Assembly (NCBI GenBank): GCA_031082125.1
Contig: JAVHLM010000001.1
Span: 124,001-188,000 of the forward strand
Origin: Candidatus Eremiobacterota bacterium
GTDB taxonomy: Bacteria > Vulcanimicrobiota > CADAWZ01 > Ess09-12
Direction: 5' to 3'
Length of the DNA stretch: 64,000 nucleotides
In this document: positions 52,186-56,861 of the stretch, piece after piece
How the letters are laid out: every line of letters begins with the position of its first letter
How positions within the stretch are numbered: the first letter of the stretch is position 1
Notes under the pieces: model-generated
What the model saw: the letters and a program-made list of their open reading frames with translations, nothing else
What the model was told of the DNA's origin: nothing
Database searches by the model: none
Program-made: the position numbers and the translations under genes

Positions 52186-52908
52186 TCAGTCCCACCACAG
52201 GAAAAGTTTTCCCGTTTTCTTTATCTCACAGGCCAGGGCCTCTACCGATCCGCAGCCCTGATCCACGCAGTCGGGGCAGAATTCGTATACTTCCTTCGCA
52301 AAGGCATCCATCGATGAAGGAAGCTTTCTGAACTTTACCTCCACCCAGTCCTGCCCGGCGCCCAGGATGACCATGGGGAAGCGCACCTGCCATGCCATAA
52401 GCTTCTCTGTTATCTTTTCATTTGTGATATCGCAGTTGACGCCGTTGGTCTGCATTATCCCCAGTATTGCATAAGGATCAGTATCTTTCACAAGGGTGAG
52501 GCATTTTACCTTTTCACCTGCCACATCAGTGATATATGGCTGATAGCCCTTTTTCTGAAGGGGCTCGCGCATCTTCTCCACAAGCTGCTCCACGTCCTGA
52601 CCCTCTATGGGGAGGATGACACCGGGCGCCTCAACCTGCTCCCCGTCAGGGCTCCAGCCATTGAGAGGAGAAAAGGGCTCCCTGGATTCCTTTCTGATCA
52701 TGGCAAGCACATCTCTGTCAAGGGATATCCTTTTTACTGCTTCCTCGTCACTGAGAACCGGCGCCGCTTTGGAAGGAGCATTCAGGGACGGCGCCACTAC
52801 CGGGGGTGGAGCTTTCCGCCCGCAGCAGAGGCCAATGATGCTGAGAATGAAAAGAAGCGCCCCCAGTCCCGGTGAAAAAAAAATTTTTCTGTCAGCTCTC
52901 ATAAGCAT
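52186..52908 (-). CDS. DUF4253-domain lipoprotein
   Basis: The start is ATG 52908 (or 52902), after GAAAGGTG; a frame runs up to 53049, but the signal peptide begins here. The 240-residue product has a hydrophobic signal ending GLCC (probable lipobox) and a Pro/Ala-rich spacer. A domain matching the DUF4253 pattern at the C-terminus follows: MAWQVRFPMVILGAGQDWVEVKF, then FAKEVYEFCPDCVDQGCGSV and the terminal LFLWWD. DUF4253 proteins have no known function and are usually cytoplasmic, so a lipoprotein version is uncommon. It is the first gene of the three-gene operon with the propeller lipoprotein and the TPR-ankyrin protein. Confidence 0.82.
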   Translation of the reverse strand: MLMRADRKIFFSPGLGALLFILSIIGLCCGRKAPPPVVAPSLNAPSKAAPVLSDEEAVKRISLDRDVLAMIRKESREPFSPLNGWSPDGEQVEAPGVILPIEGQDVEQLVEKMREPLQKKGYQPYITDVAGEKVKCLTLVKDTDPYAILGIMQTNGVNCDITNEKITEKLMAWQVRFPMVILGAGQDWVEVKFRKLPSSMDAFAKEVYEFCPDCVDQGCGSVEALACEIKKTGKLFLWWD

Positions 52909-53000
52909 GGGGCACCTTTCCCAGAAAATTTGATACTGAAGGCTTGTCCTCCACTTGAGGACAGTGTACCAGAAAAAAGTTTTTTTTTCAAGGCAATTTA

Positions 53001-53030
53001 TTGCACGTACTTGCCAAACCATGGTATAAT
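53001..53030 (+). promoter_or_regulatory. Promoter of the RRM gene (TTGCAC, 18 bp, TGG-TATAAT)
   Basis: TTGCAC at 53001-53006 and TATAAT at 53025-53030, with an upstream TGG making it an extended -10. It predicts a leader of about 135 nt before ATG 53171, long enough for a cold-shock-type 5' UTR. Confidence 0.6.
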
Positions 53031-53170
53031 AATCAACGCAGTTGTTCAATAGAGAATTAGGCTTCCCTGAGGCTCCTGTTTTGTGTGCCGGCGGGTCCTG
53101 AATTTTATAGTGAATGACAGCCGGTATGTACCGATATTATTCCAGCAAATCTGGAGAAGGAGCTTCAGGA

Positions 53171-53476
53171 ATGAGTAAAAAAGTGTATGTGGGGAACCTT
53201 GCCTACCGCACCACGGAGGACAACCTTCGCGAGCTCTTCGCCCCCTTCGGCGCCGTGGAATCGGTGAGCATCATCACTGACCGTGACACGGGGAGGTCCA
53301 AAGGGTTCGGCTTTGTAGAGATGAGCAGCGAGGAAGAGGCCAAGGCGGCCATCGCGGGTCTTGACAAGAAGGAGATTGACGGGAGAGCCCTTACCGTGAA
53401 CGAGGCAAGGGACAGGAAAGATTCAGGTGGCGGCGGAGCAAGGGGCGGCGGCGGCTTCAAGAAGAACCGTTACTAA
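53171..53476 (+). CDS. RRM-type RNA-binding protein (glycine-rich tail)
   Basis: The start is ATG 53171 behind GGAGAAGGAG. The 101-residue protein is a single RRM domain with RNP2 KVYVGNLAY (4-12) and RNP1 KGFGFVEM (44-51), then a Gly/Arg-rich tail GGGGARGGGG ending in a basic KKNRY. It belongs to the small bacterial RNA-binding proteins related to the cyanobacterial Rbp family, many of which are cold-induced RNA chaperones. The long predicted leader fits post-transcriptional control. It is probably monocistronic; the tiny lipoprotein gene starts 66 bp downstream. Confidence 0.95.
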   Translation: MSKKVYVGNLAYRTTEDNLRELFAPFGAVESVSIITDRDTGRSKGFGFVEMSSEEEAKAAIAGLDKKEIDGRALTVNEARDRKDSGGGGARGGGGFKKNRY

Positions 53477-53542
53477 AAACCAGGGAGGCCTTCTGCTTCC
53501 CTCTTAAGGCATAAATCGGCAAAAACTTCCCAAGGAGGCGAA

Positions 53543-53626
53543 ATGAAGGGGTTGAAGATGCTCTTTCTTTCGGCCCTAATAGGGGTTCTGCTTTTCTCCG
53601 GCGGCTGCAGGAATACCGGTGGATGA
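53543..53626 (+). CDS. 27-residue mini-lipoprotein
   Basis: A perfect AAGGAGG (53531-53538) precedes ATG 53543. The peptide is MKGLKMLFLSALIGVLLFSG followed by GCRNTGG: a basic start, a hydrophobic core, the lipobox FSGGC (lipid-attachment Cys22) and only six mature residues. Size and layout resemble entericidin-type lipopeptides. Alternatively it is a truncated lipoprotein, since reading past the TGA gives 18 more codons (GTSFGTGTVPEG...). It lies between the RRM gene and the two-gene radical SAM unit, so it could also be a small precursor for that enzyme, which is speculative. Confidence 0.55.
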   Translation: MKGLKMLFLSALIGVLLFSGGCRNTGG

Positions 53627-53708
53627 GGGACATCATTCGGGACCGGGACGGTCCCCGAGGGAGTCTTCTGCCGGGTTTGGTGAGGCGACCTGACTGAGGG
53701 AGAAGCCC

Positions 53709-54146
53709 ATGGATACCAGCAGGTTCTACGACAAGTATAAATCCGTCTATTGCCGGCATGGCGCTGAAAAGACCGTTATGCTCGCCTTCTGCGAGCTTTT
53801 TACCGCCAACTGCCTCGAAGTCAAAAAATGGGACAGGGCGGGAGAGCCCTCGTACCTCTACAGATTGAGGTCCGAAGCTTCTCCTGCCCTTCTTCACAAG
53901 GTCGAGAGGCTTGTGGCAGAGGAGCTCATGGAGTTCAGGGGCTTCCCCCAGATGCTTGCAGCAGCAAAAAGTAAAGTGAAGAAGACCCTGGGCCGCCGTG
54001 AACCTGGAGCCGATATGCTCGACCAGAGATTGTTCGGCCGGGTCATGAACAGCCCTGTTGACGGCAACCCCGCTTTTAAAGAGATAATCACCCGGGCACT
54101 CGAGCAGAATGCCGTACAATACCACATTGAGCCCACAGGCTGTTAG
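53709..54146 (+). CDS. Orphan protein paired with a radical SAM enzyme, C-terminal Cys
   Basis: A 145-residue cytoplasmic protein I do not recognise. The start ATG 53709 follows GAGGGAGAAG. It is mostly helical and rich in Arg, Glu and Leu, with cysteines at 15, 28 and 35 in the N-terminal half and a final EPTGC. It ends 12 bp before the radical SAM/SPASM gene and is surely co-transcribed with it. Small proteins in this position are often peptide precursors, recognition elements or partner subunits of such enzymes. It does not look like a PqqD-type recognition domain. A substrate role for the C-terminal Cys is a guess. Confidence 0.75.
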   Translation: MDTSRFYDKYKSVYCRHGAEKTVMLAFCELFTANCLEVKKWDRAGEPSYLYRLRSEASPALLHKVERLVAEELMEFRGFPQMLAAAKSKVKKTLGRREPGADMLDQRLFGRVMNSPVDGNPAFKEIITRALEQNAVQYHIEPTGC

Positions 54147-54158
54147 GCAGGCACGCCG

Positions 54159-55217
54159 ATGAGCACTTGCCGCCTCCCATCACGGCTCTACCTCGATGTG
54201 ACCAATGCCTGCCCGCTCAGGTGCCTGCACTGCTGCTCCTCCTCTGGCGAGCCTTTTGCCAGGGAGCTCACCGGTGAGGAGCTCTTGGGTATCGTTGACC
54301 AGTGCCATGCCATGGGGGTGAAAAACCTTGTCATCTCTGGCGGCGAGCCCATGCTCCGCGAGGATCTCATGGATATCCTCGCCAGGGCCGGGGCTCTCGG
54401 CCTTGGAGTCACCCTTCTCACAAGCGGTGTGCTCATGACGGAAGAAGCCGCTGCCTGCCTCGCCAGGCAGGGAGTCAGGGTGAAGATAAGCCTGGACGGC
54501 GTAAAGGCTTCAAGCCATGATTCCCTCAGGGGGAACGGCGCTTTCAGGGCTGCCCTCAAGGCCCTCGAGCTCCTTCAATCCTCGGGCCTCAAGGCCCTCT
54601 CGGTGCACTTCACCGTGCACAGGGGAAACTTTACCGAGATGACGGAGCTTCCAGGGCTCCTCTCCCGCCTGGCGGTGAGAAATATCGTCGTGGGCACCAT
54701 AAAGCCCTCGGGAAGAGCTGCAGCCCATGGAGAGCTTCTCATCCCCCCCGCAATGATCCCTTACCTCAAGCAGAAGATCAGGGACCTCTCAGACCATGGG
54801 GGCCTCCACCTGGAGAACTTTACCGACAGGGGATGGGATGGCTTCGGCTGCCCGGCGAAATGCAGCAAGTTCGGGATAAATGCCTATGGGAAAGCCACTA
54901 CCTGCGCCTTCTTCAGCACGGAATTCCTGGGCGGGAGCGTGCGGGAGTCAAGCCTTATGGAGCTATGGGAGCAGTACCAGGCCCGCAGCGGGATGTTCGT
55001 GCCGTCAAAGCAATGCGCGTCCTGCCCGGCCCTTGCCGATTCGGGGGGAGGATGCAGGGCAAGGGCTTACTATTACTCAGGGGACATCAACGGGCCCGAT
55101 CCCCATTGCTGCGCCCTGTATGAAAAGATGCGCTTCATTGAGGCCCACCGCCCCCTCGTTCTGGAGGCCGCCCGCGATGCCTGGGCCGCTTTCATGGGCC
55201 TCCGCTGCGAGGTGTGA
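54159..55217 (+). CDS. Radical SAM/SPASM-type enzyme
   Basis: A 352-residue radical SAM protein. The 4Fe-4S/SAM motif CPLRCLHC (C18, C22, C25) follows LYLDVTNA, then SGGEPMLREDL as the GGEP motif, LLTSGVLM and VRVKISLDG. The C-terminal part has the SPASM-like cysteine set: FGCPAKCSKFGINAYGKATT with the next Cys, an LGGSVRESSLMELW turn, then CASCPALADSGGGCRARAYY and a final HCC. Such enzymes (PqqE, AnSME, mycofactocin and RiPP maturases) modify peptides or proteins by radical chemistry using auxiliary Fe-S clusters, so the cell is at least tolerant of low-oxygen life. The partner is likely the 145-residue protein just upstream. Confidence 0.93.
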   Translation: MSTCRLPSRLYLDVTNACPLRCLHCCSSSGEPFARELTGEELLGIVDQCHAMGVKNLVISGGEPMLREDLMDILARAGALGLGVTLLTSGVLMTEEAAACLARQGVRVKISLDGVKASSHDSLRGNGAFRAALKALELLQSSGLKALSVHFTVHRGNFTEMTELPGLLSRLAVRNIVVGTIKPSGRAAAHGELLIPPAMIPYLKQKIRDLSDHGGLHLENFTDRGWDGFGCPAKCSKFGINAYGKATTCAFFSTEFLGGSVRESSLMELWEQYQARSGMFVPSKQCASCPALADSGGGCRARAYYYSGDINGPDPHCCALYEKMRFIEAHRPLVLEAARDAWAAFMGLRCEV

Positions 55218-55223
55218 AGCGGT

Positions 55224-56861
55224 TTACCTGTATCTGCCGCCCAGGGCCTGGTAGAGGCTCCCGAGGACGTCATAGGTCATGTTTCCCACTTGCGCCAGGT
55301 TATGCATCTCCTGCTGGGTGATGCCGTTCTCCGGGCTCAAGGTTTTCATGAGGGGCTTTACGGCATTCTGGAGCATCTGGTGCATGGCATCCTGGTCGCT
55401 TGATCCCTGGGGGCACTGCATCGAACCCATGCCCATGTTCTGTGCGCGGCGGGCCGCGTCGGCGAGGCCCTTGATCTCCTGCTCCGTGAAGCTCCGCGGT
55501 ACCGTGCTGTCAGGGAGGCCCACTGAGCCAAGGACATTCTGCCGGGCCTTGGCCTCACTGGCGATGCGCTCCGGTGTCGCCTGGTTCCTTGCAAAGTTGA
55601 GGCGCCGTTCCACTCTGTTCGGGTTCTTCAGCTCCCTCCCCAGGATGCCGTGAGTGATGAGCGGCACGTTCTGCAGCAGCATCTGGTCGCGGAGCTGCTG
55701 GCCCGTCCCGGTGTTGAGGGCGCCTCTGGCGATCTCCTTGAAGTCCTCCGTCGAAAGGGTCTTGTCGCCGCCGCCGAGCTTGGAAGGATCACCGATCATT
55801 CTGTCAAGCATGTTGAGGGTCCCCTCGCCCCCGGCGGTCCTTACCCAGGGCTCAAGCTGGCTCATCGTGGAGGCCATCTTTTCCTTTGTGAGATTCTGCT
55901 GAAGGTTCCCCAGGTTCTGCTTGAACTTGTCGAGGTTCCCTGAATTAAGCTTCTCAGCGAGCTTGGGAAACTTCTCCTGCATCTCCTTCATCACTTCAGG
56001 GGTGAACACCTTGTCCAGCGTCTCAGGCTTGAGGTCCTTGAATGCCTGCATATTTTCAGGCGTGATGACGCCCTTGAGATCAGGCGCAATCTCCTTGAGC
56101 TTCTCCACGCTTTCCTTGGTGAAGCCCTTCTCCTTTATCTCATCGCCTATTTTCCTGAGCTCCGGGACATGGAGGCCAAGCTTGGCAAGATTCACGGCCC
56201 TCTCCAGGGGTGTTTCCTTGGGCTTCCCCGCGCCATCGGCGGCAGCACCGGTTTCCTCCGCCTTCTTTGCCTGCCCGTCCATCACTTTTTGCACATCCTC
56301 ACCGATGCTTTTCACATTCCCCTCGGTGAGGACCGTATCTTTTACCGCTTTCCCCAGGCCGCCCATGCCGGCAAGGTCCATGCCCTTCTCTACGTATTCA
56401 CCGGCGCTCTGGAGCGGGCTTTTGGAGGTCTCGCCGGTATATTTCGGGGGCTCCTTCGGATCCTTGGCGCTTGATGGCTCACCGGTAAATTTCGGGGGCT
56501 CCTTCGGATCCTTGGCGCTTGACGTCTCGCCGGTATATTTCGGGGGCTCCTTCGGCTCAGACTTCGAAGGCTCCCCGAACTCCTTCTTTCCATTGACCGC
56601 AACCGACCAGGCGTCCCTGAAGGAGGACACCGAGGAGGATGGCTGCTCCCCGGGAACCTGAGGCTTTTCAGCCTCCCTGCTCAGGGATGTCTGTGACTCA
56701 CTCTGCTTTTTTACCGGGTCAGAGGCCTCCTTCTCTGCTGAAGGGGCTGAAGATGCAGCGGCCTGGGCAGGCGGGGGCGTTGACGGTGGCGGCTGAACAG
56801 GGGCACTCTGGCTCCTGGAAGAGGTTTCCTCTATTTCGGTTATGGTGTTGTCATCTGACAT
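55224..56861 (-). CDS. Repeat-rich orphan protein with helical C-terminal half
   Basis: A 545-residue protein with no signal peptide, starting at ATG 56861 after AAAGGAGG. Residues 1-100 are disordered, Pro/Ser/Ala/Gln-rich. Residues about 96-143 contain three 16-residue repeats of the type KEPPKYTGETSSAKDP. The remainder is mostly charged helix (Lys/Glu/Leu/Met), for example FPKLAEKLNSGNLDKFKQNL near 296, and ends in helices around SPENGITQQEMHNLAQVGN and LGGRYR. No family was recognised. Its layout, disordered start plus helical body, matches the other signal-less orphans of the window. It converges on the radical SAM gene. Confidence 0.75.
   Translation of the reverse strand: MSDDNTITEIEETSSRSQSAPVQPPPSTPPPAQAAASSAPSAEKEASDPVKKQSESQTSLSREAEKPQVPGEQPSSSVSSFRDAWSVAVNGKKEFGEPSKSEPKEPPKYTGETSSAKDPKEPPKFTGEPSSAKDPKEPPKYTGETSKSPLQSAGEYVEKGMDLAGMGGLGKAVKDTVLTEGNVKSIGEDVQKVMDGQAKKAEETGAAADGAGKPKETPLERAVNLAKLGLHVPELRKIGDEIKEKGFTKESVEKLKEIAPDLKGVITPENMQAFKDLKPETLDKVFTPEVMKEMQEKFPKLAEKLNSGNLDKFKQNLGNLQQNLTKEKMASTMSQLEPWVRTAGGEGTLNMLDRMIGDPSKLGGGDKTLSTEDFKEIARGALNTGTGQQLRDQMLLQNVPLITHGILGRELKNPNRVERRLNFARNQATPERIASEAKARQNVLGSVGLPDSTVPRSFTEQEIKGLADAARRAQNMGMGSMQCPQGSSDQDAMHQMLQNAVKPLMKTLSPENGITQQEMHNLAQVGNMTYDVLGSLYQALGGRYR
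56426..56573. repeat. Three 48-bp tandem repeats
   Basis: Units anchored on TTCGGGGG at 56443, 56491 and 56539 are exactly 48 bp apart and nearly identical. They encode the 16-residue Pro/Lys/Glu repeats of the orphan at 55224. The high identity suggests recent expansion; there are no unique spacers, so this is not a CRISPR. Confidence 0.9.

Follow-up and report, generated by a model that had tools for sequence, protein, structure and literature searches.

A radical SAM/SPASM enzyme and a distantly TIGR04222-like neighbour: a rare conserved gene pair and possible protein-maturation unit

The window (the whole stretch of 64,000 nucleotides that was analysed) belongs to a Candidatus Eremiobacterota genome of 7.43 Mb in 69 contigs. 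The locus under study contains the following features.

53171-53476: gene for a small RRM-domain RNA-binding protein (above the cut-off of NCBIfam Rbp_regulator), separated by 66 nt from the 27-codon ORF downstream
53543..53626, + strand: ORF of 27 codons with a lipobox-like FSGGC and an AAGGAGG ribosome-binding site upstream
53709..54146, + strand: partner protein, 145 aa, with a homologue in genome G006 in the same arrangement
54159..55217, + strand: radical SAM/SPASM enzyme, 352 aa, with Pfam Radical_SAM and SPASM over cut-off
55224-56861, - strand: convergent gene 3' of the enzyme

The stop codon of the partner gene lies 12 nt before the ATG of the enzyme gene. The original prediction for this DNA had described the enzyme, the 12-bp gap, the partner and the 27-codon ORF, and its coordinates and sequence features hold. 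A 222-aa antisense ORF at 53457-54125 was rejected as a true gene, as the partner homologue found elsewhere in the same arrangement settles the strand. No Rfam element matched across 52900-55400. Further upstream, a DUF4253-domain protein is encoded at 52186-52938 on the minus strand (Pfam E=3.5e-27).

The enzyme matched the Pfam profiles Radical_SAM (E=1.6e-24, 87.4 bits against a cut-off of 29.5) and SPASM (E=5.9e-6, 26.9 bits against a cut-off of 21.5). Its radical SAM motif CxxxCxxC is C18-x3-C22-x2-C25, and its SPASM cysteine set is C231-x12-G244-x4-C249, C286-x2-C289-x5-[S295]-x3-C299 and C317/C318. In PMC5715301 the seven-cysteine SPASM motif is given as CX9-15GX4CXnCX2CX5CX3CXnC. The window enzyme has six of these seven canonical cysteines and hence an incomplete motif; Ser295 stands at an Aux II ligand position, that of the third cysteine in the second SPASM block (the cysteine after CX2CX5). 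The CxxxCxxC motif and the SPASM-type cysteines that had been read from the sequence were thus borne out, with both Pfam profiles over cut-off. According to PMC5715301, anSME has Cys326 at the matching position, while in PqqE the position is held by Asp319, which is assigned as a ligand of the Aux II cluster. The full seven-cysteine motif is not universal, since PqqE deviates from it too. When the position was compared in the 22 rows of an enzyme alignment, it was readable in 14, with cysteine in 13 and serine in the window enzyme only; the G006 enzyme is outside these 14 rows, as its contig ends before the Ser295 region.

The top NCBIfam models for the enzyme were MftC (TIGR03962, 152.3 bits), NirJ2 (136), AhbD (133) and StsB (131). 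Since all of these best scores are far under their cut-offs (265 for TIGR03962), the enzyme fits no named NCBIfam subfamily. Among solved structures, PqqE (6c8v, E=1.3e-19) is the closest in sequence. Identity with viperin was rejected, as the PADLOC pVip matches (best E=8.6e-14) span the radical SAM core only. In the window's own genome (G000), SPASM matched 27 times at E<=0.001, and at another locus there (L039:3708-6788, contig C17) a row of genes, three of radical-SAM type and one methyltransferase-like, was recognised by eye.

We then searched for the enzyme and its partner in other genomes. The partner gene was found in 2 of the 38 relatives searched, G000 itself and G006, and a two-sequence profile again found it in these two genomes only among the 149 of the phylum. 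In both, the closest relative of the enzyme lies directly downstream of the partner, in the same order and on the same strand, and in G006 the partner gene overlaps the start of the enzyme gene by 13 bp. The G006 locus is on contig C59 (JACPDT010000286.1) of a groundwater MAG labelled Armatimonadetes. Between the window and G006 the enzymes are 46% identical and the partners 37%. At E<=1e-48 the enzyme was found in 3 of the 149 phylum genomes, namely G000, G006 and G008, the last with a longer homologue; besides the window, the 46%-identical form is present in G006 only.

The enzyme tree was built on 21 loci, from which L002 and L005 were dropped (no BLAST match at 1e-3) and to which the window enzyme, the G006 enzyme and one MftC were added to give 22 rows. 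The window and G006 enzymes form a starred clade (100/99), and the tree does not resolve their deeper placement. A profile scan of genome contigs with the enzyme alignment, using two strict peptide patterns, returned only JACPDT010000286.1. In a set of 388 genomes reaching outside the phylum, the enzyme profile matched 24 genomes at E<=1e-45, and every one of these belongs to the same phylum. Viral contigs gave no match to the enzyme or to the partner, and plasmids gave only other SPASM enzymes (best MftC, 33%) and no partner.

The genes around the pair differ between G000 and G006, and the adjacency is therefore not simple synteny. The enzyme and its partner form a conserved but rare unit, and the evidence for their linkage is good at two genomes, though this evidence does not extend to function. 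The original prediction had also seen the two genes as one unit, a claim that stands with their adjacency in both partner-bearing genomes of the 149. It had further turned on whether relatives of the enzyme occur together with the partner, and the pair is adjacent in both G000 and G006.

It could be proposed that the enzyme serves to make or insert a cofactor and that the partner is merely co-transcribed. AhbD, NirJ and metalloenzyme maturases make or insert cofactors, and the best NCBIfam matches of the window enzyme do mix peptide maturases with haem d1/b enzymes, all far under cut-off. However, a distant genome with different surrounding genes keeps the partner in the same position, and we consider a cofactor role distinctly improbable.

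Another candidate substrate is the 27-codon ORF (MKGLKMLFLSALIGVLLFSGGCRNTGG), which the original prediction had placed in the set as a lipopeptide. Using a lipobox pattern, we analyzed 150 first-order shuffles of the window. Eight contained any ORF of fewer than 60 codons with a ribosome-binding site, a basic N-terminus, a hydrophobic run and a lipobox, and none (0/150) had an ORF as hydrophobic as the 27-codon one. The real window holds exactly one such ORF under 60 codons, the 27-codon ORF itself, which from these sequence features is probably a genuine gene for a mini-lipoprotein. If a lipopeptide were modified and the 145-aa protein were an accessory, this would fit an ORF that lies directly upstream, is unlikely to arise by chance and combines a lipobox with a strong ribosome-binding site. 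However, the G006 contig has no counterpart with a lipobox and carries a gene for a 226-aa membrane protein in its place, and no second DNA copy of the ORF was found in the window's own genome. In addition, cleavage at the lipobox would leave a mature peptide of CRNTGG only, whose sole cysteine would carry the lipid. The ORF is more plausibly a neighbour than a substrate; its place in the set was not supported, and the lipopeptide as the substrate of the enzyme is very unlikely.

In the other 148 genomes the 226-aa gene of G006 gave two matches (E 0.002-0.007), neither of them a convincing homologue, and for that reason it is not counted in the unit. It sits between the G006 unit and genes of arsenic type, an arsenic methyltransferase-like gene (L031:2825-3643) and an ArsR-like gene (L030:2407-2757), which were recognised by eye divergently upstream of the unit. 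No conserved peptide gene other than the pair was found at both loci.

The partner was then analyzed. The window protein ends in EPTGC, with a Thr-Gly-Cys end, and has no transmembrane segment (maximum 19-residue hydropathy 0.91). The 275-aa partner in G006 is a membrane protein with two hydrophobic segments over the threshold, at 20-38 and 190-208, and ends in GCSV. The two are 37% identical over the 100 positions aligned by BLASTP. In the pairwise alignment they have in common Cys28, Cys35 and a Gly-Cys, which stands at the C-terminus or two residues before it. The advice to look for conserved C-terminal residues in the partner was thus fruitful, as Gly-Cys is kept in both proteins, at the very end in one and followed by Ser-Val in the other. 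AlphaFold2 models from the two-sequence alignment were of low confidence (mean pLDDT 48.8 and 50.6), with block means of 60-82 in the G006 partner across roughly residues 71-150. In both low-confidence models the predicted core has a helix-helix-hairpin-helix-helix layout, and the fold is probably winged-helix-like by these models. Foldseek with the models gave no match at E<=0.001; some of the weaker matches are to winged-helix regulators.

This layout bears on the strongest rival explanation, in which the partner would serve in recognition or as a chaperone, with an RRE-like role, and the substrate of the enzyme would be a peptide encoded elsewhere. MftB serves MftC and PqqD serves PqqE in this way, and in Thermomicrobium roseum the chaperone gene of mftA-mftB-mftC lies directly before the maturase gene. 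The predicted layout would fit a winged helix. Furthermore, the nearest relatives of the enzyme have a fused N-terminal domain of about 95 aa, RRE-like by eye, and no N-terminal RRE-like domain is present in the window enzyme; since that fused domain is absent here, a separate partner could supply its role. On the other hand, neither partner matched an NCBIfam chaperone model up to E=10, a membrane protein such as the G006 partner would be an unusual RRE, and the two loci share no further peptide gene that could serve as the substrate. We consider a recognition role rather unlikely.

We had suspected a kinship of the partner with TIGR04222 before the NCBIfam scan was run. Against 18,950 NCBIfam models, the G006 partner matched TIGR04222 alone (E=0.0011, 18.7 bits against a cut-off of 43), collinear over profile positions 4-176 of 229; the window partner did not match TIGR04222 in the NCBIfam scan. 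When a profile of seven TIGR04222 sequences from the phylum (alignment A3) was compared with the partners by hhalign, the score was 36-37 and the probability 50-55, mostly over the soluble region, while the maximum was 20.1 in 60 column shuffles and the reversed profile scored 16.1. A small HMM from the same seven proteins separated neither partner from shuffled decoys. Whole-genome scans also gave weak TIGR04222 matches (E 1e-4 to 1e-2) in genomes without any pair; two weak candidates in the window's own genome had no radical SAM or MNIO neighbour recognised by eye. The N-terminal and central transmembrane segments of TIGR04222 are absent from the window partner. The Gly/Ser-rich multi-cysteine tail of the MNIO-linked subset is also absent, and both partners have a single terminal Gly-Cys. 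Because of the sub-cut-off score, the failure of the small HMM to separate the partners and the weak matches in unrelated genomes, we call the partner a distant TIGR04222-like protein by weak sequence similarity, and not a member.

TIGR04222 is an abundant, functionally blank family that has so far been tied to MNIO enzymes. In PMC12452194, cysteine-containing TIGR04222 membrane proteins are proposed as substrates of MNIO (DUF692) enzymes, their low-complexity cysteine tails are predicted to be periplasmic, and many TIGR04222 loci are without MNIO. The term 'radical SAM' occurs twice in that paper, once in the reference list, and a table footnote has 'SAM radical' for ChrH. In the open-access literature searched, two papers name TIGR04222, and we found no description of a radical SAM enzyme paired with a TIGR04222-type protein.

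Across the phylum, TIGR04222 matched 25 of the 149 genomes at E<=0.01, over the cut-off in 10. The best 14 of 28 loci were inspected. In eight of them (L076, L077, L079, L080, L082, L083, L084 and L085) the TIGR04222 match is adjoined or overlapped by an MNIO gene, and none of the 14 has a radical SAM gene; six of the MNIO genes were confirmed by Pfam PF05114. Several of these eight loci have Ser/Gly-rich tails with many cysteines. Two of the six loci without MNIO (L081 and L088) are at a contig end. At L088:313-1119, in G008, a TIGR04222-like membrane protein (E=4e-8) ends in SGYGF with no cysteine tail, and its downstream region is cut by the contig end. At L075 and L078, Cys-Gly-tailed TIGR04222 proteins are encoded directly behind a protein of 246-262 aa, with no MNIO or radical SAM gene nearby; the L075 copy of this protein had no Pfam match. 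No MNIO (PF05114) was detected in either pair-bearing genome, G000 or G006 (0/2), an absence that in two genomes is weak evidence.

We propose that the two genes encode a protein-maturation unit in which the radical SAM/SPASM enzyme would act on its TIGR04222-like neighbour, most likely at a cysteine, and we give this reading a probability of about 0.4. The target would be one or more of the conserved cysteines (Cys28, Cys35 and that of the C-terminal Gly-Cys). The chemistry would employ a 5'-deoxyadenosyl radical and auxiliary iron-sulfur clusters, one of them with an atypical serine at a ligand position. According to PMC5682303, MftC carries out oxidative decarboxylation of the C-terminal tyrosine of its substrate. 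Because of this action of MftC at a substrate C-terminus, the C-terminal cysteine is by analogy an attractive but unproven target, although a single terminal cysteine is thin evidence.

The radical SAM enzyme may fill the slot that MNIO holds beside TIGR04222 proteins in related loci of the phylum, a replacement suggested by the MNIO genes at those loci and the lack of any in the pair-bearing genomes. We infer that the partner may be the substrate, that cysteine may be the target and that radical SAM and MNIO enzymes may be functional substitutes. Taken further, a radical SAM/SPASM enzyme standing in for MNIO would modify a whole TIGR04222-type protein, and no short peptide. Two unrelated oxidative superfamilies would then have been interchanged on one substrate family, and in the lineage of the window the substrate would have shed its membrane anchors, leaving a soluble core with a cysteine at the C-terminus. 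We consider this extended account possible but doubtful. The original prediction had spoken of a modification unit of 'unknown type'; the unit of enzyme and partner is supported, and the type can be narrowed to a TIGR04222-like partner with an enzyme that may occupy the MNIO slot, while the modification itself is still an interpretation. If the proposal is true, modification, and not one enzyme family, is what counts at TIGR04222 loci, and the pair would show a radical SAM/SPASM enzyme working on a structured protein instead of a short peptide. The soluble 145-aa substrate would also be a tractable system for finding what is modified.

Among known systems, the phylum-specific radical SAM/SPASM enzymes of 430-460 aa are the best-scoring relatives after the G006 orthologue, at 26-33% identity. 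Unlike the window enzyme, they have a fused N-terminal RRE-like domain and all seven SPASM cysteines where the motif is readable, and at some loci a precursor-like protein of about 100 aa. The family is represented at L036:3813-5132 (own genome, contig C24) and also at L014, L015 and L038, with a motif around EYFGSLIYDR...DYIPFD. In three genomes a protein of 97-101 aa precedes the enzyme (L036 3350-3643), with a shared DGFE and an aromatic C-terminus (ELLWMGI, EFFYLNI or SFFYLGI); these DGFE proteins are a candidate new precursor family.

PqqE is the best solved structure for the window enzyme by sequence, and both have a residue other than cysteine at the position of the Aux II ligand (Asp319 and Ser295, respectively). 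However, the window enzyme scores 123 for TIGR02109 against a cut-off of 381, and no PqqA or PqqD was seen at the locus. The mycofactocin system MftA-MftB-MftC is similar in that MftC is the best NCBIfam model for the enzyme and that a small protein gene lies immediately upstream. It differs in that the enzyme scores under the TIGR03962 cut-off, no MftA or MftB is at the locus, and the partner, at 145-275 aa, has Cys or Cys-Ser-Val at its end.

The TIGR04222 and MNIO (DUF692/PF05114) systems differ from the pair in the enzyme, which here is radical SAM/SPASM, and in the partner, which is under the TIGR04222 cut-off and in the window is soluble with a single terminal cysteine. They resemble it in that the partner has no evident Sec signal peptide and has a C-terminal cysteine, and in that a TIGR04222-type gene adjoins a RiPP- or protein-modifying enzyme.
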